DNA of 64,000 nucleotides, from positions 23,782-87,781 of IMG/VR virus record IMGVR_UViG_3300031251_000007. One strand, given 5' to 3'. The notes below the pieces were generated by a model. That model did no database searches and had not been told where the DNA came from. It was given only the letters and a program-made list of their open reading frames with translations. The translations under genes and the position numbers were made by a program. Shown here in pieces: positions 12,490 to 28,900 of the stretch. This DNA is from a virus. Numbering within the stretch: the stretch's first letter is position 1; every line of letters starts with the position of its first letter.

Positions 12490-12524
12490 CTTCCACCTCC
12501 GTTGTGGGCCTTGCGGCCGTTGAT

Positions 12525-12899: not shown

Positions 12900-13124
12900 C
12901 TATCCTCCGCTCCGAATCTTCTGCGCGACGACCGTGGCGCCGCAGCTCTCACAGCGCTCGGCGAGCTGGCCGGCGCTCTCGCGAACGTGACCACAGGCGC
13001 ACTCGAAGCGCCGCCGAAACGAGCGCCGCGCGATCAGGCCCTGCGCCGCCTGACAGAGTTCCGCTGTCTCGTCGGCGGTCAGCTGGGTTGCGAGCTCCAG
13101 CAGCTCGTTCAGGCGCGCGCTCAT
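12900..13124 (-). CDS. Small zinc-ribbon protein
   Basis: 74 residues from the ATG behind GGTGGAGG. A helical N-terminus (SARLNELLELATQLTADET) is followed by CACGHVRES and CESCGATVV, a four-cysteine zinc ribbon. It overlaps the end of the endolysin gene by 4 nt. It is probably a small regulatory or structural ribbon. Confidence 0.62.
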   Translation of the reverse strand: MSARLNELLELATQLTADETAELCQAAQGLIARRSFRRRFECACGHVRESAGQLAERCESCGATVVAQKIRSGG

Positions 13125-13699: not shown

Positions 13700-14037
13700 C
13701 GGCCGCGCCCCTTCAGCGCGTCGTCGATCCGCTCGAGGTGGCGCTCGTGGTCCCTGAGTTTGTCGGTGTGGCCGTCGACGCGCTCAGTGATCGTCGCCAT
13801 ATGCTCGCGCATGAGGCCCCAGTTCACGACAAACGCCCCGACGCCCGCGACAAGGCCGGTAAGCGCGCAGCCGACTACCAGCTGCGCCCACGACGTTCCT
13901 CCGCCGCCCTCGCGCGACAGGGCCAGCGCGCGTGCGTCGGCCAGCGCCTGCGCGGCCTGCTGCAGAGTCGCCGCGGCCGCCTCTTGCCGCGCAACCAGGC
14001 GCTCGTACTTGTCTGCGTCATCCGCCGCCATCCCCAC
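13696..14037 (-). CDS. Membrane protein with coiled coil, holin/XhlA-like
   Basis: 113 residues: an N-terminal coiled coil (KYERLVARQEAAAATLQQA), one membrane segment (LVVGCALTGLVAGVGAFVV, about 53-71), then a second charged helix (ITERVDGHTDKLRDHERHLE). The layout resembles haemolysin XhlA or inner-membrane spanin-type proteins. It overlaps the endolysin gene by ATGA. A start at 14031 is equally possible. Confidence 0.6.
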   Translation of the reverse strand: MGMAADDADKYERLVARQEAAAATLQQAAQALADARALALSREGGGGTSWAQLVVGCALTGLVAGVGAFVVNWGLMREHMATITERVDGHTDKLRDHERHLERIDDALKGRGR

Positions 14038-14494
14038 CCCCGGCGCGGCGCTCGCGGCGGCGCACCTCTTTTTGTAGCTGGCGCGTCGCCGCCTGCGATG
14101 CGGCGATCGCTTTGCCGAACGTGTCGAAGGCCGCGTCGACCGATGGGTGTTCCGGCAGTTTCCAGGTCACGCCGCCGGCGCGCTTCTCGCGCAGCGATTG
14201 CACGATGGTGATCCAGCCCAGCGCGGCGGTGAGGATGGAGATCGCGCCGCCGACCGCCGAGGAGACCGGTCGCGAGGTCACGGCTCCGACCAGGAAGGGG
14301 ATGCTCAGACACGAGAGAAAGGCGCCGTACCAGATGTAGAGCCGCAGCGTGCCGTCGCCGGCCGCGATACGCATCCGGCTGCCGTGCCGGCGATAGTCGT
14401 CCATCATCCCGACGCCGAGCACCAGGCACGCAACGAACGTGGCCAGGTTGGCCGGGCCTTGCAGCGAACGAAGGATCGCAAAAGAGGCGTCCAT
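14018..14494 (-). CDS. Multi-pass membrane protein (holin-like)
   Basis: 158 residues from MDASFAILRSL, with GAGGGCG upstream. Three hydrophobic segments (LATFVACLVLGVGMM, YIWYGAFLSCLSIPFLVGAV, GGAISILTAALGWITIV) are followed by a charged C-terminal coiled coil. It overlaps the next gene by 20 nt. Position and topology suggest a holin or antiholin, without sequence proof. Confidence 0.58.
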   Translation of the reverse strand: MDASFAILRSLQGPANLATFVACLVLGVGMMDDYRRHGSRMRIAAGDGTLRLYIWYGAFLSCLSIPFLVGAVTSRPVSSAVGGAISILTAALGWITIVQSLREKRAGGVTWKLPEHPSVDAAFDTFGKAIAASQAATRQLQKEVRRRERRAGGGDGGG

Positions 14495-14504
14495 CGTTTC
14501 GCCC

Positions 14505-14894
14505 TCAGCCCGCGGCAGCCGCCGGCGCTTTCTGTGCAAGCTCGACGATCTGTTGCGGCGTGAGCTGCGCGAGCGCGTTCACATGGTCGGGCGTTAGGTT
14601 ACCGAACGCTGGTGCGAGATCTTTCAAGGACTGCGGCGTGACGTCGCCGCCCTTCACCAGCACCGTGAGCAGCAGCATGATGCCGCTGCCGACATAGCCC
14701 GTTGAGCCGAGCCACTGCGTGATCGGCGCGAAGGGCCCAAAGCCGGACAGAATGCCGAGCGCCGCGACCAGCAGCATGCCGCGGATCTTGCCGGCGTTCG
14801 CGGCGATGTACGCCTTCAACCTGCCCGACGGTCCGTTGACCGCGGCGCGAAACGTTGCCTCATCGGTCAGGAGCTTCCACAGCCAACCCAGCAT
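14505..14894 (-). CDS. Probable holin
   Basis: 129 residues. N-terminal amphipathic part (GWLWKLLTDEATFRAAV), then two membrane segments (MLLVAALGILSGFGPFAPI and GSGIMLLLTVLVKGG) and a helical C-terminal tail ending in an alanine run. It is the first gene of the lysis group after a 132-nt gap with a hairpin. Confidence 0.58.
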   Translation of the reverse strand: MLGWLWKLLTDEATFRAAVNGPSGRLKAYIAANAGKIRGMLLVAALGILSGFGPFAPITQWLGSTGYVGSGIMLLLTVLVKGGDVTPQSLKDLAPAFGNLTPDHVNALAQLTPQQIVELAQKAPAAAAG

Positions 14895-14981
14895 CTCCGC
14901 CTCCGTCCGATGACGACGGTGCGGGCGCTGGTCTGTACCAACCTGCTGCTTCTCCCACCGTCGAACGCCATCGCTCCTCAG

Positions 14982-15000
14982 CCCGCGGGAGTGCCGCGGG
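14982..15000 (-). terminator. Hairpin upstream of the lysis genes
   Basis: CCCGCGG (14982-14988), loop GAGTG, CCGCGGG (14994-15000): a perfect 7-bp stem in the 132-nt gap between the exported-protein genes and the lysis genes. It lacks a U-tract, so it may be an RNA processing or partial termination site. Nothing else is seen in this gap. Confidence 0.4.
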
Positions 15001-15026
15001 AAGTCAGGTGGGGGCCCTAATCGCTC

Positions 15027-15809
15027 CTATGCCACAACGGCCGCGCGTTGCGAAGAGGTGTTGGAATAGGTCCGGCCGGCATTGACCGTGCCCGCCACTG
15101 ACAGCCGGCCGGCCAGCGCAAACTCCTTCACCGTGCCCCCGTCGGCGGTCAGCGTCGCGCCGCCGAGCGTGCCGATCTGAGCGCCGCTGGCCACCTGCAG
15201 GCCGAACGGTCCGTCACAGTGAAGTACGATGCCACCGCCCGCGCCGTTGCCGGCCGAGGCCTCGCCTTCCGGCGCGCCGTGCGCGAAGACAGCCGCTGTC
15301 GCCGCGATGTGCAGCGCTGCCCTGGCGAAGAGACGGATCAGTCCGCCGCCGGCGCCGCCCGGCTGTGTGGTGCCCCCGCCGCCGCCGGATCCCTTCACGG
15401 CTGAGGTATCGGTGGTGCTGTCGCCCTGCCCTGCGCCGGCCAGATAGCCGCCGTCAACGCCGGCCGCGCCGCCGAATGGCCCCTCACCCGCAGCCGTCGC
15501 GGCGCCGCCGCGGTAGCCGAACGTCGATGAGACGAGCGCGCCCTCGAGGTCGATCGAGTGCGCATGCACTTCGAGCTCACCGAAGCTCGAGCCGTCGTAG
15601 GCCGCGACGTTGACCAGCACACCCGGAGCGATCCAAAGCCGGCCGACGTTGCGGTGCACGCCCGCGATGACCGTGTCGGCATCGACCAGCCAGTCGTCGC
15701 CGCCGTGGTTGCCGCCGGCGGTTTCGGTCCAGCCGACGGGATCGCCGGTGGTCGCATCGGCGGTGATGCCGTATTTGGCCGCCGAGTATTTGAAAGACCC
15801 GTATTTCAT
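15027..15809 (-). CDS. Glycine-rich tail/adhesin-like protein
   Basis: 260 residues. The N-terminus MKYGSFKYSAAKYGI looks like a virion-protein opening and lacks a signal peptide. The rest is Gly/Ala-rich with regular short strands (GVLVNVAAYDGSSFGELEVH; GATLTADGGTVKEFALAGRL), suggestive of a beta-solenoid. A run of glycines (VKGSGGGGGTTQPGG) sits mid-protein. It starts next to the stop of the cysteine-rich secreted protein. It is probably a surface-binding structural protein. Confidence 0.55.
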   Translation of the reverse strand: MKYGSFKYSAAKYGITADATTGDPVGWTETAGGNHGGDDWLVDADTVIAGVHRNVGRLWIAPGVLVNVAAYDGSSFGELEVHAHSIDLEGALVSSTFGYRGGAATAAGEGPFGGAAGVDGGYLAGAGQGDSTTDTSAVKGSGGGGGTTQPGGAGGGLIRLFARAALHIAATAAVFAHGAPEGEASAGNGAGGGIVLHCDGPFGLQVASGAQIGTLGGATLTADGGTVKEFALAGRLSVAGTVNAGRTYSNTSSQRAAVVA

Positions 15810-15810
15810 C

Positions 15811-16377
15811 CTACGGCAGCGGCACAAACCGCAGGTTCTGGACCGGCACGTCCACGTGAAACGTGTATTGCTGTCCCGTGCCGGGCTGACAGACGCCGGT
15901 CAGCACGTGCGGCTGCGTCACCTCGTCGCTGCTGCGGCTGCAGGTTCCCGGCGCGCATTCGGCGTTGCTAGTGCACGGCTGATCCTTCTTCGGCGGCGGC
16001 GCGACGCACTTTCCAACATAGCCGCCCGTCGCCGGCGGCAGGCGGACGGTGGCGCAGCCGGCCTGCAGCGCACAGAGCCCGGAAGTCCCGGGCGGGCAAC
16101 CGGCGTCGTCGATGCAATAGTCGCCGGTGTTGGTCCCGCCGGTGCACTTCCGCGGGCATGGCTTGCTGCCCGGCGATGCTTCGGTCGTCTTGGCGAGCAG
16201 CACCTTGCCGCTGTTCACGTCGTTCACCTGATAGTCGAACGTCGGACACAGAGCGGGCTGGTGCGCCGAGTCGGTGAAGCTGAGATCGACGTCGCAGTAG
16301 CTGTCTTCGCGGCAGGCATCGTCGGCGCGCGCCGCGATCGGCAGCGCCAGGCAGAGGCTCAGAATCAGTCGGCGCAT
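15811..16377 (-). CDS. Secreted cysteine-rich protein
   Basis: 188 residues. Signal peptide LILSLCLALPIAARA, cleaved near 19. The mature protein has many cysteines in repeated short patterns (KCTGGTNTGDYCIDDAGCPP; KDQPCTSNAECAPGTC), similar to the CxxGxxC..D.DC..G.C modules of bacterial extracellular proteins. Disulfides would form in the periplasm. No enzyme motif. It lies within a run of exported proteins and probably belongs to the same complex or surface function. Confidence 0.68.
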   Translation of the reverse strand: MRRLILSLCLALPIAARADDACREDSYCDVDLSFTDSAHQPALCPTFDYQVNDVNSGKVLLAKTTEASPGSKPCPRKCTGGTNTGDYCIDDAGCPPGTSGLCALQAGCATVRLPPATGGYVGKCVAPPPKKDQPCTSNAECAPGTCSRSSDEVTQPHVLTGVCQPGTGQQYTFHVDVPVQNLRFVPLP

Positions 16378-16387
16378 CGGTCCCTCC

Positions 16388-16993
16388 TCAGCGGATGACG
16401 GCCTGCACAGCGGGCGCGCGCGGCCCGGCCGAGACGTTGGGTTCGCGCACCACGATGGCCGCCCCCGGTCCGCGGATCACGGCGCCCTTCAGGAGGTAGC
16501 CGCTGCCGGGTGTTGGCGTGATCGTCGCGGTCCCCGTCGCCGTGCGCGTGTCGGTGCGCGTCGGCGTTGCCGTGACAGTCCCTGTTGGTGTCGCGGTCCG
16601 GGTGGCCGTACTCGACGGCGTCGGCGTGAACGTGTCGGTGGCGCTCGGCGTTGGCGTTGCCGTCGGCGTCGCCGTGCGCGTCACGGTGGCTGTCCCGGTC
16701 GGCGTGTCGGTTGCAGTGAGCGTGCTGCTCGGCGTCAACGTCGCCGTGCGTGTGCTGGTGCGCGTCGGCGTGTCGGTCGGCGTGGCGGTCATGCTTGGCG
16801 TCAACGTCACCGTCGGCGTGTCGGTCGGCGTCGAGCCCGGCAGCGGCGTATCGGTCGCCGTCGGCGTCATGGTGGGGGTCGGCGGCGGACCGAACAGCGG
16901 CACGAGGCCGTGCGCCGGGCGCGGATACACCGCGGCGATCGCCGCCATCAGCAGCAGCGCCAGCAGTGCGATGATGTCCGGCCAGCGCCACAC
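16388..16993 (-). CDS. Membrane-anchored Thr/Pro-rich stalk protein
   Basis: 201 residues. One N-terminal hydrophobic segment ([18 protein letters not shown]) is followed by ~130 residues of Thr/Pro/Ala repeats ([18 protein letters not shown] and variants), then a compact C-terminal ~40 residues ([20 protein letters not shown]). The repeats look like a rigid, possibly glycosylated stalk that would hold the C-terminal knob away from the membrane. The DNA is a run of GTCGGCGT-like octamers on the plus strand, prone to length change. Confidence 0.62.
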
Positions 16994-17065
16994 TCAGAGG
17001 CCCCGCGCACCGACGATCGCAGGCGTTGCGGACGCATTTGCGGGTATGCTCTGATCTACCCACAC

Positions 17066-17464
17066 ATGGGGTCGTCTCGCCTGCCCGCGCTGGGGATTCT
17101 GCTTGTCGGTATCGTACTGATCGCCCGCGTAGCGGTGCGCCCCGGCGATGTCGACGCGCGTCTCGGGCACATCGCCGCCGAGCTGACCTGCGATCGAGAG
17201 CTGTCGGGCGGCAAGCGCATCCAGCTTGTCGGAACGCAGACGGCGGCGCTCAGCGGCCCCACCAATGAGCACACGTGCGGCGATCTGCGCGTGTCGCTCG
17301 ATCACGGATGCGGCGCCGACATCGCGATCCTGCTCAACGGCGAGCTGACCGCGCTCACGTGCCATGTCGCATCGGGCGCCACGGATGCGTGCCGGAGCGG
17401 TCGGATCGTGTTGCCCGACGGCATCCTGTCGTTGCGCGCGGTCGCCACAGACTGCCCGGCGTAG
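17066..17464 (+). CDS. Inserted plus-strand secreted Cys protein (moron)
   Basis: 132 residues on the strand opposite to all neighbours. Hydrophobic signal/anchor LPALGILLVGIVLIARVAV, then a mature domain with six cysteines (TCDRELS, HTCGDLRV, HGCGADI, LTCHVA, ACRSG, DCPA). TATGCT at 17045 could be part of a promoter, but no good -35 is seen at the right distance. Opposite orientation and an independent start suggest a moron expressed apart from the late operon. Confidence 0.55.
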   Translation: MGSSRLPALGILLVGIVLIARVAVRPGDVDARLGHIAAELTCDRELSGGKRIQLVGTQTAALSGPTNEHTCGDLRVSLDHGCGADIAILLNGELTALTCHVASGATDACRSGRIVLPDGILSLRAVATDCPA

Positions 17465-17478
17465 GGTTCGTGGGCAGC

Positions 17479-20052
17479 TCATAGGTTCCCGCACGACGCG
17501 TAGGTGTCGCTGGTGCCCGTCAGGCAGTGGGTCATGAGATCGGCAAGCACCTGATTGCCCGTCGTCTGCATCGGGTTCGGGCAGCCCTGGCTACTACTGA
17601 ACAAGCCGTAGGTCGGGTCGACCGAGAGATGTAGCGCGTCGCGCTCACAGCATGCGACGCGATGATTGTCGCAGCGGTTCTGCATCGCGCCGTCTGGGTC
17701 GATGGTCATCCAGCTGCGGCGCGCCGCCTCATGCTCCCAGTAGCCGCGGCTCGCCCGCAGATCGTCGCGGACGTTGGTGAACCGACACGTGAAGGTCGCC
17801 GTATCTGCCGCGTTGGTCTCCCACGTGCGCCACGGCAGGATGGCGATGAACTTCGTGCCGTGCGCCACGCCGTACGCGTCCATCGCGTCGAGGATCTTGC
17901 CGAGATAGTCCTGAAAAGTTGATTCGGTGGTGCGCTGCGCGCAGAGCCCTTGTGGGCAACCGTTCGCATTTTTCGCCGCCGGGACGCAGATGGTCGCGCC
18001 GGCACCGGTCAAGTTGCATTGCGCCGTGCCGCCCGCGATCGGCGTTCCGCATGCCGTCGCCGGATTGGCGCCGAGCCCGCAGAAGACGCCGAAGAAGCCG
18101 GGATTGTTGCAGTAGGACGTGAAGCTGGCGAGGTCGACGGCGCCGGCCGGAATCGAGCAGGTCGAGCCCTGGATCGTGTCAGGCGTCGGCGTCGCGGGTC
18201 CGCCCGGTGTCGGCGTCGGCGCTCCCGGCGTCGGTGTAGCCGGCGCAAAACAGTATCCATCGGTCGGCGCACTGGGCGCGGTGCCGTAGTCGTTCGCGCC
18301 GTCCCACAGAAAAAAGACATAGTCGCAGATCGCGCCGGTGGTGCCCTTGTAAACCTGCTGTTTCCAGCAGGTCGGATTGCCGCCCGCGAGCGCGCTGTTC
18401 ACGCACGAGGCCGAGCCCGGCCAGAGCATGCCGAGCTTCGTGCCCTCGTTGCCGTAGTCGTAGATGTTGTCGGCGCCGTCGAGCTGCGCGGCGAGCGCCG
18501 TATACAGTGCCTGATCGTTCACCAGGCTCGTGCCGAACACGCACACGGTGTTCTTGGTGTCGCCGGTGGGGTCGGTCATCACCACGGTGGCCGGCGTCGG
18601 CGTCGGCCGGGTGACTTCCACCTCCGCCCAGGCGTCTGTGACACGCACACGAAAGCCGGAGCTGTTGGTCGACTGTGCGTCGAGCGCGAAATCCAGCGCG
18701 TTGATGTCGGTCAGGTTCCACGACGCGCTGCTCCAGTCAGAAGAGAACAGCGATGTCGGAGAACTCCAGTAACTCGTGCCATATCCGTTCGGGTCGAACG
18801 TCGAAGCGTAGCGCGTGGTGGTTCCGTTGCTGACACCGAAGCGGATCGGCTTGGAATTGCCATTAGCCGCCGTCTCGCGCAGGGAGGCGTTGAACCCCAC
18901 CATCGCGTCCGGGCGGATTGATTCGCCGGTTCCGAGCGTCACATCTTGTAGCTGGAACAGATCAAGGTCGGTGCCCTGGATCTGCACATAGTTCGTCTCG
19001 TTGGTGTGGCCGCTCGTGCCGCTGATCGTGTCCTGCACGCATTGGTAGTCATTCGCCGGCGAGGTCCCGGTGCAGCCCTGGTTGTCGGAGGCGCCGTCTC
19101 CGCCGCTGGGCGAGCCGTTGGGGTGCAGATCCGCGAGCCGGAAAAATAGCCCAGTGTTGACGCTGCCTTCGTGCGCCAGGTTGTCGATCGAGTAGTCGAT
19201 CGCGCCGGTGTTCGTATCGGTCACGCCCCAGCGAATCTCGCTCGTGTTACCGAGTGTCGTGACCGAGCACGTGCCCGCTGCGTCGCCTTCGGTGGTCTGC
19301 GAGCAATCTGTCGACTTCGCGCACGCCTCGCCGGGATGGAGCCCGCCCGTGCACACACCCTGCGCGCGTGTCTGGTTGCCTTGCAGCTTGCCGTTGACGA
19401 GCAGCCCGCACTGCACGTTGCCGGGATCGGTCAACGTGGTGTCGGTGGTAACCGCGACCTCGGAGCACGTGCCGACCTGCAAGACGGTCGAGCTTTGCGC
19501 AAAGTTGGCGGGCGCGCACGACGCGGCGCCCGGATTCACCTCACGACACACGGTGGTATCGGTGCAGTTGGTGCCGTTATCCAACGAGCCGACGCACTCC
19601 AAGCCCGTGTCGTGAAAATAGACGCGCAGACGCACGCCGGGGCTCTCGGCTTCCGCCATGAGGAAGCACTGCTTGGACGAGGTGGTCGCCGAGTAGAACG
19701 ACACGACCTCGCGGTTGGTGCCGGTCGCCGGCGCTGCGCGCAGGCAGAACTCAAGATGCACCGTGCCGTCGGCTGTCGCGGTGACCGACGTCACCACATA
19801 TTCGGTGCCACCGCTGGCTGGATTGATTCGGAGGCTGAAGTCGTCGCCGCTGTCGAGCCCACTGAGCCCGGTATTGGCCTCGATCGTGGGCGAGCCGACT
19901 ACGCTGGAGAACGCTTTCGACATGGTCGACAACGTCCACGGCGTCGCGCCGCTATCGCCGCCGCCCTCGAAACCCTCCAGCACGTCACGAGCGGCGAAGC
20001 TGGTCGAAGCAACCAGCACGAGGGCGGCAGCGGCAATCAGTTCGCGCTGCAT
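17479..20052 (-). CDS. Secreted SGNH/GDSL-type hydrolase-like protein
   Basis: 857 residues with signal peptide LIAAAALVLVASTSFAA. Residues ~25-500 are a beta-rich region with Cys motifs (VCTGGLHPGEACAKSTDC) and fibre-like segments. Residues ~500-840 show the SGNH blocks in order: VFGTSLVND (Ser509), GNEGTKLG (534-541), WDGANDYG (Asn587) and DALHLS (Asp805, His808). A Thr/Pro linker (PTPGAPTPTPGGPATPTP) lies inside the catalytic part. The family removes acyl or acetyl groups from glycans and esters. It may modify surface polysaccharide; the Sec signal is odd for a tail enzyme. It overlaps the upstream gene by 16 nt. Confidence 0.68.
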   Translation of the reverse strand: MQRELIAAAALVLVASTSFAARDVLEGFEGGGDSGATPWTLSTMSKAFSSVVGSPTIEANTGLSGLDSGDDFSLRINPASGGTEYVVTSVTATADGTVHLEFCLRAAPATGTNREVVSFYSATTSSKQCFLMAEAESPGVRLRVYFHDTGLECVGSLDNGTNCTDTTVCREVNPGAASCAPANFAQSSTVLQVGTCSEVAVTTDTTLTDPGNVQCGLLVNGKLQGNQTRAQGVCTGGLHPGEACAKSTDCSQTTEGDAAGTCSVTTLGNTSEIRWGVTDTNTGAIDYSIDNLAHEGSVNTGLFFRLADLHPNGSPSGGDGASDNQGCTGTSPANDYQCVQDTISGTSGHTNETNYVQIQGTDLDLFQLQDVTLGTGESIRPDAMVGFNASLRETAANGNSKPIRFGVSNGTTTRYASTFDPNGYGTSYWSSPTSLFSSDWSSASWNLTDINALDFALDAQSTNSSGFRVRVTDAWAEVEVTRPTPTPATVVMTDPTGDTKNTVCVFGTSLVNDQALYTALAAQLDGADNIYDYGNEGTKLGMLWPGSASCVNSALAGGNPTCWKQQVYKGTTGAICDYVFFLWDGANDYGTAPSAPTDGYCFAPATPTPGAPTPTPGGPATPTPDTIQGSTCSIPAGAVDLASFTSYCNNPGFFGVFCGLGANPATACGTPIAGGTAQCNLTGAGATICVPAAKNANGCPQGLCAQRTTESTFQDYLGKILDAMDAYGVAHGTKFIAILPWRTWETNAADTATFTCRFTNVRDDLRASRGYWEHEAARRSWMTIDPDGAMQNRCDNHRVACCERDALHLSVDPTYGLFSSSQGCPNPMQTTGNQVLADLMTHCLTGTSDTYASCGNL

Positions 20053-21533
20053 AGGAACGTGCCGTAGGGATACAGCGCGGTGGTGTTGTCAGTGCACGTC
20101 CCGCTGCACACCGCGTAGAAATGCACGCGGTCGCCTTGCGTGAACGTGTTCGTGGTGGTGTCGGTACAGGTGCCCGCAGCCGCGGTGACTGCACAGCTCG
20201 CGAGGGAAGTGGCACTTTCGTTCTTGGTGTAGCCAATGGTGATTGTGGCGCCGGTGGGCCACGTCCCGAAGGCATTGACCCTCGCCGAGAACGTGCCGGT
20301 GGTGCAGCTCTCCGGCAAGATGTCGAATTCGTAGACGGTCAGTAGCGCGTTCGAAGTGTTGTCCTTGATGTACTTCCGGGACGAAAGGGTCGACGCTGTC
20401 ACCTGAGCGACGCCGCGCATAGCGAACGAGAGCCTCGCTGAGACATTGGCCTTGGTCGCAACGTCGGCGCTGTTGGAGTAGCTGCCGGCGTAGCGACACG
20501 ACGTTGACGAGGTGTTGCCGCAGTCGATGACGCTGGTCACCACCAGCTTCGTCATCGTCTGCAGATTTGCGCCGAAGCTGTTCGCTTCGTCCTCATAGGC
20601 GATCGCTGTCGGGAGATCCGCCTTATCGATCGCCCCGTCCTGCGTGATCTGCGAGCCGGGTGCGACGTTGATCTTCGACGGGTCACTCGAATCGACCGAC
20701 ACGTCGAACAACGAGCTGAAGTTCAGGGTGAAGCCAGAGCCGATGAGTGTGCTGTTGTTCTCGACGCGCATCGGCGTCCGATCGACCGTCCACACGCCGG
20801 CCTCGCTGTAGAACATGCGCATCGACTGGCCGGCGGCGATATAGACCGGGCTGCCGGGTGTGTTCAGCACGTTGGTCACATCGGCAAATTTCACCCGCCC
20901 GGCCGATGCTTTGACGTTGAAGATCGTAACGACCTGGCCGGCGCGCGCGCTCGTCTCCTGCATCGTGCCGTCACAGCCGCCGCTGGTGTCGCTGCACGTG
21001 ATCTCGACGTAGGACTTCGACGGATCGAGGTTGAACGTCGCGGCTGAGCTGTTGCCCGAGTCGGCGACGCTGACGGCCTGCGTGTCGAGGTCGAGCACCT
21101 TCAGATCGGCGCGGCCGGTCGAGGCGTCGGAGATGCGCAGCACGCCGGCGGCGTCGCGCGCCAGGCCGACGTCGCTCCACGGCACCTGCTGGCTGTTGCC
21201 GAGCGCGCCGCTCATCAGCGCCCAGTTCTGCACGCGGGTCCAGCCCGACGCGTTGCAGCTCGAGCCGGGGCACGAGTACATCACCCCGAGATCGTCGATG
21301 ATGACCTCGCCGTTCAGGCCGTCGGTCTGCGCGGTCGGTGTGTCGGCGCGACGTAGCTGCAGCGTCGGCGAGTTGGCGGCGCGACTGGTGCCGCTCGACG
21401 AATCGCCGGGGTCGATCTTGATGACGTCGACGGCGCCGTTCTTCAGGCTGACCGAGCCAGACGCGCCCGGCTGCAGAGCGAGCGACGGCGCCGCGAGCAG
21501 CAGCGCGCCAAATGCCAGAAGTACCCGGCGCAT
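20037..21533 (-). CDS. Secreted fibre-like protein
   Basis: 498 residues from MRRVLLAFGALLLAAPSLAL, a clear signal peptide; the start overlaps the upstream stop (TGATG). The mature part reads like a phage fibre or adhesin: GVMYSCPGSSCNASGWTRV, QTDGLNGEVIIDDLG, SKSYVEITCSD, SMRMFYSEAGVWTVDRTPMR. The C-terminal third has paired cysteines (CTDTTTN, CSGTCTDN). No enzyme motif is visible. It would be exported by the host during infection or lysogeny. Confidence 0.62.
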   Translation of the reverse strand: MRRVLLAFGALLLAAPSLALQPGASGSVSLKNGAVDVIKIDPGDSSSGTSRAANSPTLQLRRADTPTAQTDGLNGEVIIDDLGVMYSCPGSSCNASGWTRVQNWALMSGALGNSQQVPWSDVGLARDAAGVLRISDASTGRADLKVLDLDTQAVSVADSGNSSAATFNLDPSKSYVEITCSDTSGGCDGTMQETSARAGQVVTIFNVKASAGRVKFADVTNVLNTPGSPVYIAAGQSMRMFYSEAGVWTVDRTPMRVENNSTLIGSGFTLNFSSLFDVSVDSSDPSKINVAPGSQITQDGAIDKADLPTAIAYEDEANSFGANLQTMTKLVVTSVIDCGNTSSTSCRYAGSYSNSADVATKANVSARLSFAMRGVAQVTASTLSSRKYIKDNTSNALLTVYEFDILPESCTTGTFSARVNAFGTWPTGATITIGYTKNESATSLASCAVTAAAGTCTDTTTNTFTQGDRVHFYAVCSGTCTDNTTALYPYGTFLCSAN

Positions 21534-22405
21534 CACGACAGCCTTTCGAGGCTCCAGGTGACGTACTGACTGTTTGAGAGCGTGGCAGGTGTGGCGATTT
21601 TCAACGTGGCACATTGTCCCGCCGTCGTGGTGGTGACGTGCGTGGAGTCGCTGCAACTCGCCGCCGACGCACCGCCCGTGATGGAGCAGGTCGTCGTCGC
21701 GTCAGACATGGTGCCGTTGCAGGTTCCCGTGCGCAGCGTGCAGCTGACCGTGTTGCTAGCGCCCGCGGCCGTCGTCTCCATGCAGCGCAGGTTGCTGAAA
21801 GTGCCTGCGCCGACCGGGATCTCGGCGCGCGCCTCGGTCGTATCGGCTGTTCCGCCACCAGAGTAGACCGTTTGGTTGGTAGTCAGGTCTGTGACCGACG
21901 TGCCCCAGAGGATCGGCTGCGGGATCGCCGAGCACGTGCAGGTCGTTCCGCCACAGGTTAGCCGCTCATTGCTTGCGCAGGTCGGCTGCGTGGCGCCCAA
22001 GCCGCCGCGGCTACCGGCGAGCGTTGCCTCGCTCGACAGGTTGCCGCTGCCGTCGTTGATGACGACGTGGTTTGCGGTGCCAGCGGCAATCTTGCTTCGC
22101 GCAATCGCCGCGGCCGCATCGATCATCGCGTTGACGACGGGCGCGAACGCCGGCGCACCAGATACGAAGGCGAACACCGTGTTCGCGCTGCCGGCCGAGG
22201 TGCATGTCATCGCCGAGCTGCCCTGTCCGTACGGCACGCCGTTGGTCGCACACGACGTCAGCGCCGGCGGTCCGGTGACCGAGATCGTGCCGTTCTGCAT
22301 GCTGATGTTCGTGCCGCCGACCAGCGCCCAAGCTATGCCCGCCAGAAGCCACACGCTGACGAGCGCCACCGCACCGACAAAGAACCGTTCGCGAATCCGC
22401 TTCAT
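21533..22405 (-). CDS. Secreted or membrane-anchored fibre-like protein
   Basis: 290 residues from MKRIRERFFVGAVALVSVWLL, preceded by GAGGGG. The basic N-terminus and one long hydrophobic segment may act as an uncleaved anchor. SKIAAGTANHVVINDGSGNL followed by SSEATLAGSRGG is a motif of phage tail-fibre repeats. The C-terminus holds cysteine pairs (CTLRTGTCNG, CGGTTCTC). A tail-fibre-like motif behind an export signal is unusual. Confidence 0.62.
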   Translation of the reverse strand: MKRIRERFFVGAVALVSVWLLAGIAWALVGGTNISMQNGTISVTGPPALTSCATNGVPYGQGSSAMTCTSAGSANTVFAFVSGAPAFAPVVNAMIDAAAAIARSKIAAGTANHVVINDGSGNLSSEATLAGSRGGLGATQPTCASNERLTCGGTTCTCSAIPQPILWGTSVTDLTTNQTVYSGGGTADTTEARAEIPVGAGTFSNLRCMETTAAGASNTVSCTLRTGTCNGTMSDATTTCSITGGASAASCSDSTHVTTTTAGQCATLKIATPATLSNSQYVTWSLERLS

Positions 22406-22415
22406 CTTCCACCCC

Positions 22416-22880
22416 TCAAAATGCTGCGACATGAGCGTGCGGCGCGCTGGCGGCCGCTCCTGCCGAATACGTAGCTTTCCAGACGGCACAGTTGCCGTCG
22501 GGAACTGTGATCGAGTGCGTGAGATCATCGGCGGTCGTGCTGGTGCCGCTGACCGTGACCACCAGCGTGCTATCGGCGAGGGCCGTGCCGCAGGTGCCTG
22601 TCTGCGCGGTGAGCGTCACCGTCTCGCCGGCGCCAGGTGCGGTCGGTAGCGTCACGCGCGCGCGCCGAAGCACCGTTGCGTTGAGTCGCTGCGCAACTTT
22701 CGATTGCGTCGTGCTTAGGTCGGCACCGTCGATCGACAGATAGACCGTCGAGCCCGGCGTGATGTCGGTGACCGGCGTACTGCTGAACGCGTGCGGTCGC
22801 ACCACCGCCGGCGACCCCGGCAGCTGCGCTGCGGCGCTCGAAGCGGCCAGCAGCGCGGCGAAGATGAGGCCGGCCCGCAT
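22416..22880 (-). CDS. Secreted beta-rich protein
   Basis: 154 residues. Signal peptide LIFAALLAASSAAA. The mature part has alternating strands (STVYLSIDGADLSTTQ, RARVTLPTAPGAGETVTLTA, STLVVTVSGT) and two or three cysteines. It looks like a single beta-sandwich domain; partner unknown. The start overlaps the upstream stop (TGATG), giving translational coupling. Confidence 0.58.
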   Translation of the reverse strand: MRAGLIFAALLAASSAAAQLPGSPAVVRPHAFSSTPVTDITPGSTVYLSIDGADLSTTQSKVAQRLNATVLRRARVTLPTAPGAGETVTLTAQTGTCGTALADSTLVVTVSGTSTTADDLTHSITVPDGNCAVWKATYSAGAAASAPHAHVAAF

Positions 22881-23434
22881 CACGGCGTGATGACCTCCAA
22901 CTGCTGGCCGCTGGTACACAGAAACTCGATCGTGCCGCAGTCGTCATCGGCCGCCGGTGCGATCGTAAAGTCGTAGGTGCCGGGCTCTAGGCGCCGACTG
23001 TTCGATGTCGTCACACCCGGGTAGCCGACGTGCGCGATGTCGTTGCCGAGCGGGTTGGTGATGCGCAGCTGTACGCACGGGCGCCAGCCGCTGCCGAGCG
23101 TAACGGCAGTGCCGGTACCGGCGCAGTTGATGCGGCCGTTCTTCCGCACAGCGCTGCTCGGAAGGCGGCTGACGATGTCTTGTGCCGGCGCCTGTGCGCA
23201 GCGCCCGACGACCGCGCTCCCGGGACAATCGGAGTCGAGGTTGCAGCCGGCGTCGTTGGCGTCGCCGGCATTACAGCGATTGCGGACGTCGAGCCCGACG
23301 ACGGTGCCAGTGCTGTCCTCGTACGGATTGATGACGCCGAACTGCGCGCGCGCCATACCGCCGAGTAAGAGCACAGCACCGAACGCAGCGGCCCGCGCCA
23401 CCGCGCCACCCATCCACCGCCACGTTCGGTGCAT
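22880..23434 (-). CDS. Secreted cysteine-containing protein
   Basis: 184 residues behind GGAGGAGGAG. Signal peptide AFGAVLLLGGMARAQ, then FGVINPYEDSTGTVVG and a cysteine cluster (NRCNAGDANDAGCNLDSDC) similar to the Cys modules of neighbouring proteins. C-terminal part is beta-rich (RLEPGTYDFTIAPAADDDCG). It is probably extracellular or periplasmic; no enzyme motif. Confidence 0.6.
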   Translation of the reverse strand: MHRTWRWMGGAVARAAAFGAVLLLGGMARAQFGVINPYEDSTGTVVGLDVRNRCNAGDANDAGCNLDSDCPGSAVVGRCAQAPAQDIVSRLPSSAVRKNGRINCAGTGTAVTLGSGWRPCVQLRITNPLGNDIAHVGYPGVTTSNSRRLEPGTYDFTIAPAADDDCGTIEFLCTSGQQLEVITP

Positions 23435-23465
23435 CCGCTCCTCCTCCACCCAACCGTTGAGGTGC

Positions 23466-23708
23466 TTAGCTCTGCGCGGCCGACTGATCGGCCGGCGGCG
23501 CGCTCGGCACCGGGTTCTCCGGGTCGGCGCCGATGGCGCGCAGCGCGTCCAGGTGCGCGTTGATCTCCGTCTGGATCTGCGCCGCCTGCTCGTCGGTGAG
23601 GCCGCCGGCTTGCTGCTGCGCAACGAGGGCGGCCAGCTTGTCGGCGATGCGCGTGGTCTCGCTGTCGACCGCGCTCAGCGCGCTCTGAATGTCATCGAAT
23701 CGGGGCAT
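23466..23708 (-). CDS. Small coiled-coil phage protein
   Basis: 80 residues from MPRFDDIQSALSAVD, chosen because AGGAGG stands just upstream. TTRIADKLAALVAQQQAG then EQAAQIQTEINAHLDALRAI is a helical pattern common in small phage hypotheticals. An in-frame GTG at 23837 would add 43 residues with a membrane helix (LLIGAGAAVCGLAALGVVNL); both forms could be made. Function unknown. Confidence 0.6.
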   Translation of the reverse strand: MPRFDDIQSALSAVDSETTRIADKLAALVAQQQAGGLTDEQAAQIQTEINAHLDALRAIGADPENPVPSAPPADQSAAQS

Positions 23709-23833
23709 GAGTTCCTCCTTCGTGGCGATCCGCGCCACACGGGCATTGGTGCGCAGCGTGGCGCACAAGTTGACGACGCCGAGCGCGGCCAGTCCGCAGA
23801 CCGCCGCGCCGGCGCCAATGAGAAGAGCCGTCG

Positions 23834-24391
23834 TCACGGCGTTAGGAATTCGGACCCGGATCGACGACCTGCTCGATGTTCCACTGCACCGCCGCGATCG
23901 GGTTGAAGTTGATCAGCGGCAGGTACGTCTGCGCGGCGATCGACGAGAGCGGCGTCAGCACGTTGGCCACCGCCTTCAGGTCGTTCAGCGCATCCGCCAG
24001 ATTCACCTTCGAGCTGACCGGCACGACCAGCGGGGCCGGCGGCGTCTTGCCGGCCGGCACGCCGAAGACGATCCGCACCGACACGTTCCAGTGCGACGTC
24101 TGGGCCTGCGCCTGCGGGGCGCCGAGGGCGGCGAGGCCGACCAAGGCGCAGATGAACAGGAACTTGCGAAGCATGTGCGACTCCTTCTGCCGCCTCAGGG
24201 GCGGCGGTTTCGGTTTCCCAGCCCAGGTACCCGCGCCCCGGCTTGAGGCGCGGCGTCCGTGGGACGTTGGCGGCGAGTAGAAACGCGTCCGGCAGTGCCC
24301 AGCCGAGCGCGACGTAGGCGCGGCGCACCTCGGCCTGGAGCTCGGCCGCGATGTGCAGCCGAAAGGCAGCGACCTGACGCGACTTGGCCAT
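23834..24391 (-). CDS. Doubtful overlapping gene
   Basis: Starts directly after the TAA of the lipoprotein gene. The first ~72 residues (MAKSRQVAAFRLHIAAELQA, then LPDAFLLAANVPRTPRLKPG) look protein-like and fill a gap that is otherwise empty. The rest runs in another frame over the entire small secreted protein gene, and its sequence there resembles a shadow. It may be a short gene truncated by a frameshift, or spurious beyond about 24174. Confidence 0.35.
   Translation of the reverse strand: MAKSRQVAAFRLHIAAELQAEVRRAYVALGWALPDAFLLAANVPRTPRLKPGRGYLGWETETAAPEAAEGVAHASQVPVHLRLGRPRRPRRPAGAGPDVALERVGADRLRRAGRQDAAGPAGRAGQLEGESGGCAERPEGGGQRADAALVDRRADVPAADQLQPDRGGAVEHRAGRRSGSEFLTP
23842..24174 (-). 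CDS. Small secreted protein
   Basis: 110 residues behind AAGGAG. Signal peptide FLFICALVGLAALGAPQAQA. The mature ~87 residues (TSHWNVSVRIVFGVPAGKTP, then AVANVLTPLSSIAAQTYLPL) have no cysteines and no known motif. It is part of the exported-protein run. Confidence 0.62.
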   Translation of the reverse strand: MLRKFLFICALVGLAALGAPQAQAQTSHWNVSVRIVFGVPAGKTPPAPLVVPVSSKVNLADALNDLKAVANVLTPLSSIAAQTYLPLINFNPIAAVQWNIEQVVDPGPNS

Positions 24392-24742
24392 TTAGGCGCA
24401 CGCGCATCCCTCCGGGGTCGGCGCCCAGTACGGGCCGCTGGCGCGCTTGCCCGGTGCGCAGACCCGCGGACAGGCGCAGATGTGCGGCTCACAGGTGGGC
24501 GCCGAAGCGAAGCAGCCAGCCGGCACCTGTGGACAGGCGGCGGCGCGCGCCGTGACGGCCGAGGCGATCGCCGTCTGCCAGGCGCTCGACGGCGTCGGCT
24601 CGGCGGCCGGCGCCAGCTGCACCAACGCGGCGCGCTGTGCCGCGAACCCCGACGAGACCGGCGTCGGGCTACAGGCAGCGATGCACAGCGCGATCAGGAC
24701 CGCGCCGAGTAGCGTCTTGCCTTGTTCCTCTGCGACACCCAT
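24392..24742 (-). CDS. Cysteine-rich lipoprotein
   Basis: 116 residues. Signal peptide GAVLIALCIAAC with a lipobox at about Cys24. The C-terminal half is packed with cysteines (AACPQVPAGCFASAPTCEPH, then ICACPRVCAPG and EGCACA), suggesting a disulfide-knotted module on the outer membrane. GGAGG precedes the ATG. It is the first gene of the exported run in transcription order. The 103-nt gap before it contains only a 6-bp hairpin (24754-24771). Confidence 0.65.
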   Translation of the reverse strand: MGVAEEQGKTLLGAVLIALCIAACSPTPVSSGFAAQRAALVQLAPAAEPTPSSAWQTAIASAVTARAAACPQVPAGCFASAPTCEPHICACPRVCAPGKRASGPYWAPTPEGCACA

Positions 24743-24753
24743 GCACCAACCTC

Positions 24754-24771
24754 CACGGCGGTGAAGCCGTG
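24754..24771 (-). other. Small hairpin before the lipoprotein ribosome-binding site
   Basis: CACGGC, six-nt loop GGTGAA, GCCGTG. On the minus-strand mRNA it ends just before the GGAGG of the lipoprotein gene, so it could affect its translation. Short and possibly chance. Confidence 0.3.
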
Positions 24772-24845
24772 CGTGATTGCAGGGGCGTCGGGCGGGGCGG
24801 GCACGCGGTGGAACGCGCGGGCACCCCAGACGGGCCTGTATGTTC

Positions 24846-25055
24846 TTAGCGGCGCTCTACCACATTGCCGCGGGCTTGAGAATTCTCCTCGCTGAGTAGG
24901 TCCATAATCGCCCGCAAGCGCTGGTTGTACTCGCGAAAGTCGCGGGCGCGGTGCGCCTCACGGGCGGCGCGCGCATGCCGACGTACGTTGACGTCGAAGG
25001 GGTCGGGCGCCGGCGTGCTGCCAGCCCCCGACCGGATGTGGGGAGTTCGATTCAC
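24846..25055 (-). CDS. Hypothetical small protein
   Basis: 69 residues, GTG start overlapping the upstream stop (GTGA). A C-terminal charged helix (ARAAREAHRARDFREYNQRL, then AIMDLLSEE) is the main feature. Function unknown. Confidence 0.52.
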   Translation of the reverse strand: MNRTPHIRSGAGSTPAPDPFDVNVRRHARAAREAHRARDFREYNQRLRAIMDLLSEENSQARGNVVERR

Positions 25056-25321
25056 GCGACCCTGAATATTGGATAGACGACAGGAACTTCCGCGCCGGCG
25101 GCCATTGGATCGAAGGAGTCATGCGCGAAGACGAGCCGAAATACGTCCTCGGCACCGACGTAGCCTGATCGGACAAGCTCTGCAGTCTCCGGGATCACCA
25201 CCGGCTCAGTGGGGGCCGAACCTGGCGCGCCGCGCCGTATCAGCGACGCAACGACTTCAGGCGCCACATGGACTTCTCGAAAGCGACCTTCCGCAATTGC
25301 CTTGAGCTGCTTCTCCACCAC
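25052..25321 (-). CDS. Hypothetical protein
   Basis: 89 residues: EKQLKAIAEGRFREVHVAPE, then TAELVRSGYVGAEDVFRLVF and a short beta-rich C-terminus. No motif was recognised. It lies between the fibre-associated gene and the exported run, with a GTGA overlap to the next gene. Confidence 0.55.
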   Translation of the reverse strand: MVEKQLKAIAEGRFREVHVAPEVVASLIRRGAPGSAPTEPVVIPETAELVRSGYVGAEDVFRLVFAHDSFDPMAAGAEVPVVYPIFRVA

Positions 25322-25350
25322 ACACCTCCGCCAGTTGACCGCCGGGCGCC

Positions 25351-25905
25351 TTACGCGGCGTCTTCCGCCTCGAAGCCCGCCTGCGCCGCCGCATCGGTGA
25401 ACAGCGGCGTCAGGATCATCAGCGCCAATGTAGAGAGCTTCTTCGCGGGAATCAGCTTGTAGCCAAAACGCTGCACCTTGACCTCGACTTCCTGCTTCAT
25501 GAAGTCGTCGAAGCCCTGCCGGCGCTGCTCCTCCGCGTTGATCGCCGCCATGTGCGTCTCGCGCAGCTCGGCGAACTTCTGATCGAACTCGGCCTCGCGT
25601 GCCTTCTCCATGACGTACCGGCTGCCGCCCTCGGGCAGCGCCAGCACCTTCGCCTCGCCGCCCTCGCCCTTCTCGGCATACTCCTGCGCAAGCGCGCTGC
25701 GCGCCTGCTCAAACGCCAGGAACGCCTTGCCGGGCTTCTGCGCCTCGCGCACCGCATCGACCTCGCTGCGCAGGCTGTCGCGTGAGAGCTTCAGCGCATA
25801 GGCGAGCTTGTAATCGGGGCCGTCCATCGCGCCGGCGACGTGATCGATGGTGCCGGCGAGCTCCAGCACGTCGCGGCGCTGCATCTTGATCGTATCGAGG
25901 GCCAT
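25351..25905 (-). CDS. Helical tail-associated phage protein
   Basis: 184 residues behind AGAAGGAG. It is helical and charged, with SLRSEVDAVREAQKPGKAFL and RSALAQEYAEKGEGGEA, then a C-terminal VQRFGYKLIPAKKL segment. The pattern matches a family of short phage proteins encoded near fibre genes; a chaperone or linker role is only a guess from position. Confidence 0.55.
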   Translation of the reverse strand: MALDTIKMQRRDVLELAGTIDHVAGAMDGPDYKLAYALKLSRDSLRSEVDAVREAQKPGKAFLAFEQARSALAQEYAEKGEGGEAKVLALPEGGSRYVMEKAREAEFDQKFAELRETHMAAINAEEQRRQGFDDFMKQEVEVKVQRFGYKLIPAKKLSTLALMILTPLFTDAAAQAGFEAEDAA

Positions 25906-25936
25906 CGGGGGTCTCCTTCTGCGTTGGGGGTTGGGG

Positions 25937-28900
25937 TCACGCAATGTTGGAAAAGTACGGGACGTAAACGATGTTGCCGGCGTTATCGTGCACCTGCAGA
26001 TAGCCGGTGTTGTCGCGACTCGTGCCGGCGGTGAGCTTTAGCGATCCGACGCCGGTTGACAGGGAGGTGTTCACCGCCTGGACGCCCAGCACGCAGCGCT
26101 CGGTGCCGTCCTCGGCGCGGAAGAACACCCAGGACTTTCCGGCCGCCGCGTCCTTCGCGTAGATCTGCACGGAATCGGCCGGCGACGATGTCGGCGCCGT
26201 CGCGTTGGTAATGCCGATCACGTTCTTTGCCGACGTGCCCACCGACGTGCTGCCCAGCTTCAGGTTCACGCCATCGCTGAACATGCTGAAGCCGCCGAGC
26301 GTGGTGCCACTGGTGTCGCGCAGCGAGACGAACGAGGAGCAGATGAGCGCGCCGTCGGCGTTGACGGCGAACATGACCGTCGTCCCGTTGTTCGCGAAGC
26401 CGGTGATCAGGTTTGCCGACTGGCTCGACGTCCGCCGGATGGTGATCGCCGTCATGTCGCTCGGGATCTCGAACACCATCTGCGCGGTCAGCGTGGAGGT
26501 GCTGGAGCCGATGACCAGCTTGTCGGTCGCGGTGACCAGGCGGATGGTCGTGCCGTCGTCACTCCAGCCGCCACCACCGCCGCCGGACGTCAGGTCGAGC
26601 CACGTCGAGCCGTTGTAGAAGTAGAGCTTGCTGTCGCTGCTCTTGGTGTAGAGCGCGCCCAGCTCGGTCGGCGGCGCGCCGCTCTGCGGGTAGAGGATCA
26701 TCCCGCCGGCGGCGTAGAAGCCGAAGCGTACGTTCAGATCGTTGGTCGCGGATCCCGTGTCGATGCCGCACAGGATGAACTTGTCCTTGCGGTAGCTCGA
26801 CGAGGTGCCGATGCCGTCCCAGTACGACGCGACAATCATCGCCGCCGGAATCGGGTACGACGTGTCGGCCATGTTCAGCAGGCTGGCGTTGGTCAATACG
26901 GCGCCGTTCAGCGGCGCGTAGTCGAACCCCCAGAGCGAGCGCGGCCCGTGCGACGTCAGCCCTGCGTGACCTTCGACGCTGATGGGCCGGTACTGCCGGT
27001 TCATCTTCTCGGCGCCGGCGGTGGCGAATCCGGCCGTAACGGCGAGCGGGTTGATGTGCAGCCCGCGGATCGTCCACGAGGTGTTCGTGATGTTGTGCGT
27101 GATGCTCTGGCCGAGCGTAATGCCGGTGTTGCCGCGGAAGTAGAAGCCGATCAGGTTGTGATAGGTCGACGTCGACGACTCGAGTTGCGTGTGGCCCGCC
27201 ATGAAGCAGGCTTCCGGCGAGGTGCCGCCGGCCGCACCGACGTCCGCGCCGTTGTAGTTGAGCTCGCCGCCGACGCCGACGATCAGATTCCACTGGCCAA
27301 TGCCGGCGCCGAGCTCGCACGTCGCGTCGACGCCGTACAGGTTGTAGCTCGCGAACGTGCCGGCATAGTCCGCGCCACCAGAGCCCTTGGCGAACTGGCA
27401 GTGCATGCCGCAGTACACGGCCGACTGCGCGTTCGTCGTGCCGGCGAACATATTGAGCGCGATTGCGTTTGACGGGATCATCAAACGCATTTCGTTCGTG
27501 TAGATCGCGCAGAACCGCCGCGTGGCGCTGTTGGTCGAGACGCCGTCGATCTCGTAGCGCAGGTCGCCGACCAAGCTGATGCCGGCCTGGTAGACGCTGT
27601 CGCCACCCTTCGGGATGGCGCGCGCGCCCGGGCCGATGGTCAGGTAGCGCGTTTTCATGACCGTGCGGCCGCCCTCGAGCCATGCCGCCTGGCCAGAGAT
27701 GGCGTCAGCGTGGAACGTCCGCAGCGGATACGCCGTCGACGTCGTCAGCGCCTTGGCGTAGAGCACGTTGCCGCCGGCGGAGGCCGCGACCGACTCGCCG
27801 AGCGTCAGGCCGGCCACATCGCCGGCGCCGAGCGCCCAATTCCACACCTGCGCGTTGGCGCCGTTGGCAATCGTGTTGCCGCCCGCGGCGGCTGTTAGGC
27901 TGCTGAGCGCGGCCGTGCCGGCGACGCCGCTGACCCAACTGAGTACGCCGGTGCCGTCGGTCGCGAGCACCTGGCCTGCGCTGCCGTCGTCGGGCGGCAG
28001 CGTGTACGTGATCGTGCCGCCGGACGCCGGTGCCTTGATCAGCGTCGCGCCACTCGTCGCGCCGGTGAGCGTGATGCCGAAGCCGGCTTGCGTGGTGAGC
28101 GCGCGCGTCGACAGCGCACCGGCGCTGCTGACGCTGACGTAGGTGCTGGCGCCCGAGTTGTCTTGAACTTCGAGAATGTTCGCCGACTGCGACGCCGCGC
28201 CGCGGATGCGCGTGGCAACCTTGGTCGCCAGCGACGACACGACGCCGAGCTGCGCGGCGATGTCAGCCGTTGCCGCCGCTGAATCACCGAACAAGGCGTT
28301 CAGGCTCGGGCCGAAGATCTTGAGCGCCAGATGCGCGGCGGAGAACAGATTCGCTTCGGTGTCGATGTTGACGCCGAAGAAGTGGCCGGTGCTGTTGGTG
28401 GCCCCGAGGATCGCGCCGGCGGCGCCGAGCAGGCCCGCGGCCGCCGTCGCCGTCGTCTTCGAGAAGAATCCGCCCGCTGCGGTCACACTCGCGATCGGCG
28501 TGCCACCGCTGCTTCGCCATTCGGTGAACGCGCCCGTCGGCGTCGCCGCATGTTTGATGACCAGCGGAATGTCAGATGCCGACCCGGCCTCGACGTACAG
28601 CCGCGAGTTCGCCGCCGCGGTGGTTGCGCCGACCGCCACCTGGTCGCTGACCGTCGACAGACGCACGACCGTACCATCGTCCTGCCATCCGCCACCGCCG
28701 CCGCCGGATACGGTTGCCCACGCGCACACGCCACCGGAGCCGACCTGTAGGAACTGGCCGGCGGTGAACGTCGACGGCAGCGTATAGGTGACCGTGCCGG
28801 CGCCCGAGGTTGCGGCGATCGATACCGCCTCGCTGCCGGCGCCGCCGAGCTTGATACCCTGCTTGAACGCGGGGACAGTCCCGTTGAACGTCCAGGCGCC

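Follow-up and report, generated by a model that had tools for sequence, protein, structure and literature searches.

A late-operon island of predicted Sec-exported fiber-like and esterase-like proteins with relatives in distantly related tailed phages

The linear IMG/VR virus record IMGVR_UViG_3300031251_000007 has a total of 87,781 bases, of which bases 23782-87781 (64,000 nucleotides, here called the window) were analyzed. The minus strand of the window carries a siphovirus-type late operon identified by profile matches, and within it lies a run of genes, here called the island (15027-24742), seven products of which are clearly predicted to be exported. Distantly related phages contain further runs of Sec-signal fiber-like and enzyme-like genes, and a block of three consecutive exported genes most likely moved between two lineages. 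The island may well represent a mobile, late, Sec-exported kit of fibers and an esterase acting at the surface of the phage's own host, most likely in receptor masking or editing; this function, which we infer, is favored tentatively. Coordinates refer to window numbering unless prefixed with L (loci) or G (records).

The first-pass annotation had placed ten or more exported proteins between tail fibers and lysis genes. The location was confirmed: the island is a co-directional minus-strand run flanked by fiber-like genes (25937-30016) on one side and membrane/lysis-like genes (13121-14894) on the other. The number had to be lowered; besides the seven clear cases, three products appear only membrane-attached or lipidated, and 15027-15809 has no signal peptide by the rule described below.

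Export signals, cysteines and gene content of the island

Signal peptides were assigned by a fixed rule of our own, used in place of SignalP and comprising a hydrophobic core, a net positive n-region and the -3/-1 rule; 13 of 13 E. coli signal peptides passed it. By this rule, six of 11 island open reading frames (ORFs) encode a Sec signal (23842-24174, 22880-23434, 22416-22880, 21533-22405, 20037-21533, and 15811-16377), as compared to one of 71 other hand-listed window genes, which has a doubtful GTG start (Fisher p = 9e-6). A seventh signal, MQRELIAAAALVLVASTSFA with cleavage before A, was recognized by eye in 17479-20052, which fails the rule because the net charge of its n-region is 0. 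Three further proteins carry a lipobox (24392-24742) or an N-terminal membrane segment (23466-23837 and 16388-16993); the latter two are counted as membrane segments rather than as cleaved signals. Shine-Dalgarno (SD)-like sequences were found upstream of the starts at 24174 (AGGAG, 6 nt), 23434 and 16377 (both AGGAGG, 5 nt), and GGAGGT is located 12 nt upstream of the start at 22880. As background, of 2061 automatic gene calls made in other loci, namely capsid-related loci, fetched stretches and the rest of the window's own record, 52 are single genes with a signal-like N-terminus, with overlaps between loci counted twice. All gene starts outside the window are those of the automatic caller.

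Cysteine makes up 106 of 3251 residues in the island ORFs as compared to 188 of 17393 elsewhere in the window. The Cys-bearing exported or anchored window proteins contain 8, 2, 12, 12, 34, 14, and 6 mature cysteines, all seven counts being even; without the doubtful plus-strand gene, which accounts for the count of 6, six of six are even. These counts, from which signal-peptide cysteines were subtracted by hand, leave aside the lipoprotein and 23466-23837. The loci of nine related records (G027 and G032 left out) were evaluated for all signal-bearing complete genes with at least two mature cysteines, which yielded 30 even and 6 odd counts (p = 3e-5). When homologous copies were counted once by hand, a step in which one odd fiber copy of G030 was dropped as a copy, 24 even and 5 odd counts remained (p = 3e-4); together with the window these numbers are 31 and 5 (p = 6e-6). 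Non-exported proteins of at least 120 aa gave 41 even and 48 odd counts. Even numbers of mature cysteines point to disulfide-bonded, exported-type folding; hence, we take this bias as independent evidence that the island proteins fold in an oxidizing compartment.

The island genes are described here in transcription order, on the minus strand unless stated otherwise. The first gene (24392-24742, 116 aa) had been annotated as a Cys-rich lipoprotein and is the weakest member: its lipobox IAAC speaks for this assignment, but with an acidic n-region and a codon score of 0.054 (the ten training genes used as reference scored 0.06-0.43) the lipoprotein is only probable. Downstream of it, 24175-24391 contains a coding-like minus-strand frame (score 0.286) which has no stop and enters the next gene in another frame, possibly a short gene or a sequence error. 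Then follow a Sec-signal protein without mature cysteine (23842-24174, 110 aa), a protein with an N-terminal membrane segment and a coiled-coil-like remainder which failed the signal rule (23466-23837, 123 aa), and a Cys-rich Sec-signal protein (22880-23434, 184 aa, 8 Cys). The Sec-signal protein 22416-22880 (154 aa) is paralogous to the C-terminal region of the fiber-like Sec-signal protein 21533-22405 (290 aa, 12 Cys, fiber-type motif RGGLGA), with 36% identity over 103 aa. These are followed by a fiber/depolymerase-like Sec-signal protein (20037-21533, 498 aa, 12 Cys) and by an 857-aa protein with 34 Cys, in which a Cys-module region precedes an SGNH-hydrolase-like C-terminus (17479-20052). 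The run closes with a membrane-anchored Thr/Pro stalk (16388-16993, 201 aa, no Cys), a Cys-module protein (15811-16377, 188 aa, 14 mature Cys, CTGGTNTGDYCIDDAGC), which the first-pass annotation had already noted and whose signal peptide is supported by the rule and the SD sequence, and a fiber-like protein without signal peptide (15027-15809, 260 aa, one Cys, KYGSFKYSAAKYG).

Between the SGNH gene and the stalk, a 485-nt gap contains a plus-strand ORF (17066-17464) for a possible divergent membrane-anchored protein of 132 aa with 6 Cys and an N-terminal membrane segment. This ORF has a modest codon score of 0.17 (the open minus frame scored 0.08) and lacks an evident SD sequence. A long plus-strand open frame over the stalk (codon score 0.25) was taken as an artifact of the Thr/Pro codons. 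Most island genes are tightly packed within the late operon. The TGATG overlaps by which many of them are coupled according to the first-pass annotation are present at two junctions (22880 and 21533); one further junction is a 16-nt overlap (20052/20037), and the remaining ones are gaps of 217, 4, 31, 10, 485, 10, and 1 nt. Among repeats in 13000-30100, the main family is the Thr/Pro codon array, and the others are weak and present in two to four copies.

Homologues of 17479-20052 were found in G024 (E=1e-25) and G027 (E=2e-10). The block I GxS and block V DxxH residues are conserved in all three proteins, and in the window protein an insertion separates H from the subsequent PN. To this extent the earlier designation as SGNH-hydrolase-like stands, although neither the window protein nor that of G024 has a Pfam match. 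A separate exported SGNH protein of G021 matches PF13472 (3e-11). Protein 20037-21533 gave a weak match to PF25692 (Phage_depo_C) of 22.2 bits, below the cut-off of 25, and an exported G024 protein matches the pectate-lyase-type family PF12708 over 49 residues (35.5 bits, cut-off 27). Two exported G024 fibers are alike over the signal and the first ~45 mature residues and differ distally (E=3e-4). Fiber-type motifs are located in the mature parts of the exported proteins. AlphaFold models reached pLDDT values of 42 and 29, the latter for the SGNH-like protein, too low for the models to be of use.

Other searches were largely negative. PHROGs gave no tail match for the exported window proteins, and the sole match of 10 window proteins to PADLOC defense profiles was that of the Thr/Pro stalk to PD-T4-6 (17.4 bits). 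The SGNH protein, 22880-23434 and 20037-21533 had no tblastn match in the phage collection; short weak matches of L002-L004 to 20037-21533 led nowhere. As single queries, the SGNH, J-like and portal proteins matched no viral contigs, and a scan with the SGNH family profile recovered only G024 and G027. With the exported SGNH protein of G021 as query, viral contigs gave no match other than the protein itself, and phages gave none. The island as target of a diversity-generating retroelement was rejected, as the reverse transcriptase family PF00078 exceeded the cut-off in none of 11 records, with one sub-threshold match in G033.

Recurrence and exchange of exported gene runs

A degenerate DNA pattern derived from the cysteine module of the island was scanned over the viral contigs of IMG/VR, so that contigs were picked by this module and not by signal peptides. 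It matched 16 stretches in 15 contigs, 12 of them in open frames of more than 300 aa (11 contigs); the other four, in short or interrupted frames, were regarded as spurious. In 10 of the 12 frames, at least one of the in-frame starts upstream of the module begins a signal that passes the rule. L200, cut at the locus end, gains a signal in the longer stretch L236, and L210, the signal-less exception, looks like a chance match. The resulting 11 signal-bearing frames in 10 contigs include four copies of one fiber (L203, L205, L208, L211). An eleventh record, G021, was reached through its capsid.

Tailed-phage genes were identified by profile in G021, G024, G025, G026, G027-G031, and G033 and were not confirmed by profile in the 11.8-kb fragment G032. 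Exported runs, which the first-pass annotation had suggested should be sought in related phages, are present for example in G021, G028/G030 and G033. In G021, a J-like protein and a 225-aa protein precede a signal-bearing SGNH protein of 818 aa; two further proteins with signals come next, and then small membrane proteins. In G024 the exported fibers directly follow the J-like gene. The SGNH-like protein occurs in three records and the large fiber in four: this fiber of 1,012 aa is found in G028 (two copies), G030 and G033, and a homologue in G025 is 29% identical to it over 545 aa. In 23 of the capsid-related records, the J-like query gave three weak matches and the 20037-21533 query none; the capsid profile behind them yielded the best 80 of 589 confirmed viral matches. 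An integrase of family PF00589 was found in four of 11 records, some of which are fragments, and other recombinases were not sought; the islands are thus not evidently confined to temperate phages. G028 (L223-L226, 68 kb) seemingly contains two related copies of most of one phage, ~33.7 kb apart and each with its own exported cassette, which may be tandem prophages, a concatemer or an assembly join.

Comparison of G033 with G028/G030 revealed 86-88% identity for an exported protein of 163/174 aa, 85-88% for the fiber, 76-84% for an exported 239-aa protein, and 53-81% for the first 36-40 residues of the stalk. Beyond these, the three whole records match in the portal (23-24%), in a methyltransferase (34%), and in a few small genes (28-37%). 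Because identities of 76-88% stand against at most 37% elsewhere, the stalk N-terminus aside, three consecutive exported genes most likely moved between lineages as a block, which makes the kit the apparent unit of exchange. The exported G033 gene preceding the shared block matches part of a 442-aa G028/G030 gene with 32-34% identity. This gene (G028 L223:11463-12791) has a Hjc-nuclease-like N-terminus in its G030 copy, and the related G033 sequence (L238:9341-10429) follows a signal peptide. Elsewhere in G033 (86373-90255, L245), five small genes form a tandem family, all matching one G030 protein (11415-12131) with 28-37% identity. The ratio dN/dS, computed from four copies each of the fiber and the 239-aa gene and from three copies of the stalk (without G033), was 0.08-0.13 for the fiber, 0.10-0.14 for the 239-aa gene, and 0.19-0.26 for the stalk; these low values indicate purifying selection on genes that are real and maintained.

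At E 1e-5, exported proteins are the sole link between G024 and G026 (the latter compared over 40 of its 45 kb), G024 and G027, G025 and G028/G030/G033, and the window and G024. The window also shares a portal/head relative with G028, G030 and G031 without sharing an exported family with them. The SGNH pair of the window and G027 stayed above 1e-5 when the whole of G027 was used as masked query, though other comparisons found the pair. The portal belongs to phrog_12 in the window, G027, G028, G030, G031, and G033, to phrog_156 in G025, and to phrog_1216/332 in G026; by their portal types we take G025 and G026 to be probable podoviruses. Given the differing portal and capsid families, the exported families cut across backbone types, though several of the phages are distant kin.

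The membrane-anchored Thr/Pro stalk described earlier proved to have counterparts of the same architecture in the last cassette gene of G028, G030 and G033: an N-terminal membrane segment is followed by a YPR(P/Q) turn, an extended Thr/Pro repeat and a short C-terminus. The G033 stalk ends in a Cys-containing part. Owing to the low-complexity repeat, the window stalk resembles the others in architecture only, a resemblance which sequence statistics do not demonstrate. Thr/Pro-rich stretches are also found in proteins of G025, G026 and G027, in all in seven of 14 record sets examined.

Host surface, virion or lysogen

The anatomy of the island, late, exported, disulfide-bonded, fiber- and esterase-like, with membrane anchors and exchangeable, suggests a kit working at the cell surface. 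Export and a joint kit had been proposed before, and both gain support from the even cysteine counts, the 10 other contigs plus G021, and the three-gene block; the more specific role (masking, glycan editing, exclusion or adhesion) is an inference. Late in infection, the island proteins would be exported through Sec and would form disulfide bonds and fold in the periplasm. They might then be displayed or released at the outer surface, with the stalk and the lipoprotein serving as anchors. Fiber domains could bind the surface glycan used by the virion, and the SGNH esterase-like protein could trim the same glycan. As a consequence, sister phages would no longer adsorb to infected cells and debris, which would amount to superinfection exclusion and anti-readsorption. 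A surface kit directed at the phage's own receptor glycan is the reading that needs the least new biology, and runs of this kind suggest that, before bursting a cell, some tailed phages coat or edit its exterior.

Several points weigh against this reading. The signal peptides rest on our own crude rule, and some start sites are uncertain; a cruder automatic caller with a stricter rule listed four signal genes in the window, three of them in the island. The automatic caller misses island signals because other frames or starts are picked, and its fourth call (36878-37426), on the strand opposite to a tail gene, is probably false. The window SGNH assignment is based on motifs and a weak PDB profile match (LAE5, E=0.05). 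Pfam, PHROGs, NCBIfam, and PADLOC gave nothing convincing for the island beyond low-complexity stalk matches, in agreement with the earlier impression that the island seems to match no known module, and no homologues proven to act as exclusion proteins, adhesins or esterases were found for the island proteins. An outer-membrane anchor is not visible in most of the exported proteins. The window and G027 also share helicase-type genes (one with 54% identity), and the window and G033 share the portal (33%), a methyltransferase and a helicase; part of the sharing thus appears to reflect distant kinship. Fiber motifs and a place after J are also typical of virion receptor-binding proteins. Finally, early expression is reported for exclusion proteins, and Llp of phage T5 is small (PMC9586334).

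The main alternative explanation is possible, if unlikely: the exported proteins may be real tail fibers or tailspikes that mature through Sec, fold in the periplasm because the cytoplasm cannot form the needed disulfides, and dock on tails at lysis. The disulfide signature fits this explanation as well; what it disfavors is that the proteins are uncleaved, ordinary virion components, the outcome that the first-pass annotation had named as contrary to its own proposal. Docking would also agree with the fiber motifs in the mature parts, the PF12708 match in an exported G024 protein, exported genes that follow J immediately in G024 and with one gene in between in G021, and two G024 fibers which share a proximal and differ in a distal part, like virion fibers with a common anchor. 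However, genes with 76-88% identity in phages with portals of 23-24% identity would require a docking partner to travel along. The window contains unexported fiber-like genes (25937-30016) too, and the membrane stalk and the probable lipoprotein, not expected as virion parts, would be left without a virion role. We know of no tailed phage that adds Sec-exported fibers, and titles and abstract openings of mostly open-access literature contained no description of Sec-exported tail fibers. A doubtful form of this assembly route holds that Sec-secreted fibers or tailspikes, disulfide-bonded in the periplasm and added at lysis, constitute one exchangeable cassette for very different tails in the same kind of host. 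Proteins joined to virions after lysis would be an exception to the textbook cytoplasmic assembly of tailed-phage fibers.

Lysogenic conversion, in which a prophage would express exported adhesin and glycan-modifying morons to the benefit of the lysogen, likewise seems rather unlikely. The record of the window encodes a tyrosine integrase outside the window (L005:9150-10400, PF00589, E=1e-11), so that the phage is probably temperate, and the possible divergent membrane-anchored gene (17066-17464) also speaks for this reading. Against this stand the presence of PF00589 in only four of 11 records, the close packing of most genes in the late operon, and the lack of promoter-like sites in 12500-26500 (0 found, 0.9 expected, scanned with the sigma-70 consensus only). 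Terminator-like sites numbered 8 vs 7.3 expected in the same interval. Lom and bor of phage lambda are exported and lie in the late region. They are likewise phage-encoded envelope proteins of a temperate siphovirus. Their expression in lysogens has been described (PMC7067206), which favors lysogenic conversion. In contrast to these single small genes, the island is a run of about 10-12 genes with fiber-like, Cys-module and SGNH-like members, for which the sigma-70 scan found no moron promoter.

It is very improbable that export is mimicked by hydrophobic N-termini which ordinary virion proteins of a GC-rich phage have by chance: the predictor is crude, starts are uncertain, the automatic caller sees three island signals and the background calls exist, but enrichment, SD sites, even-Cys bias, purifying selection, and recurrence all argue otherwise.

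Descriptions of envelope proteins encoded by phages usually concern one or two proteins. Llp of T5, too, is a phage envelope protein and blocks the receptor to further adsorption (PMC9586334). It is one small periplasmic lipoprotein acting on FhuA, whereas the island encodes large fiber-like proteins in a late operon. PblA and PblB of the Streptococcus mitis phage SM1 are reportedly tail-type proteins. They are phage-encoded adhesins at the host surface (PMC2920869). PblA and PblB reach the surface through phage holin and lysin; the island proteins in contrast have a Sec signal each and the disulfide signature. Tailspikes and depolymerases with GDSL/SGNH or pectate-lyase domains appear to share fiber motifs and domain types with the exported proteins (PF25692, weakly, PF12708 and PF13472). 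Ordinary tailspikes are not known to carry a signal peptide and are assembled in the cytoplasm, unlike the signal-bearing island proteins. Elsewhere, phage P8625 is reported to have no signal peptide in 52 genes (PMC4642752), five rumen phages have 0-2 per genome (PMC5723332), and one endolysin with a Sec signal is reported (PMC8951688). If surface-acting, the exported islands would make up a large class of systems for masking or editing receptors that has received little notice. Their genes are easily mislabeled as 'tail fiber' or 'hypothetical'.

Surroundings of the island and further observations

The late operon comprises, all on the minus strand, terminase (54772-56622), portal/head morphogenesis (51471-53903), major capsid (46771-48039), adaptor (45052-45912), tape measure (37429-41625), glycoside hydrolase (36204-36887), and J-like tail protein (30018-34643) genes. 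Two fiber-like genes follow, 29279-30016 with weak tail-fiber PHROG matches and 25937-29266 assigned by its look only, then a few small genes, the island, and finally small membrane proteins and a presumed endolysin. The latter group (13121-14894, minus strand) was designated as lysis genes solely by its position and membrane segments; for the proposed endolysin (13121-13699), Pfam and PHROG gave no match and PDB no convincing one.

The capsid profile found 62 genome loci, mostly of Proteobacteria, too broad a range for a host call. The host is presumably a diderm in which CxGGxNxGxxC modules are abundant, and Binatota or Myxococcota are conceivable candidates. The phage furthermore encodes a Mom-family DNA modification protein and several DNA methyltransferases (L005:1190-1768, minus; window 125-1060, plus; L005:5145-6203, minus; L006:9867-11906, plus) and, at 11507-12187 on the plus strand of the window, a protein with an ESCO-type zinc finger (PF13878, E=1e-9). 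In another phage, a capsid-looking protein (L004:16963-18408, plus strand) has a seemingly signal-like hydrophobic N-terminus. Finally, a signal peptide was seen on a phage-structural-looking protein located by a capsid gene (L013:12448-13332, plus strand, also in L100; ISSSSAGDTQAMSISGLDANGNPV), which is possibly exported and virion-like.

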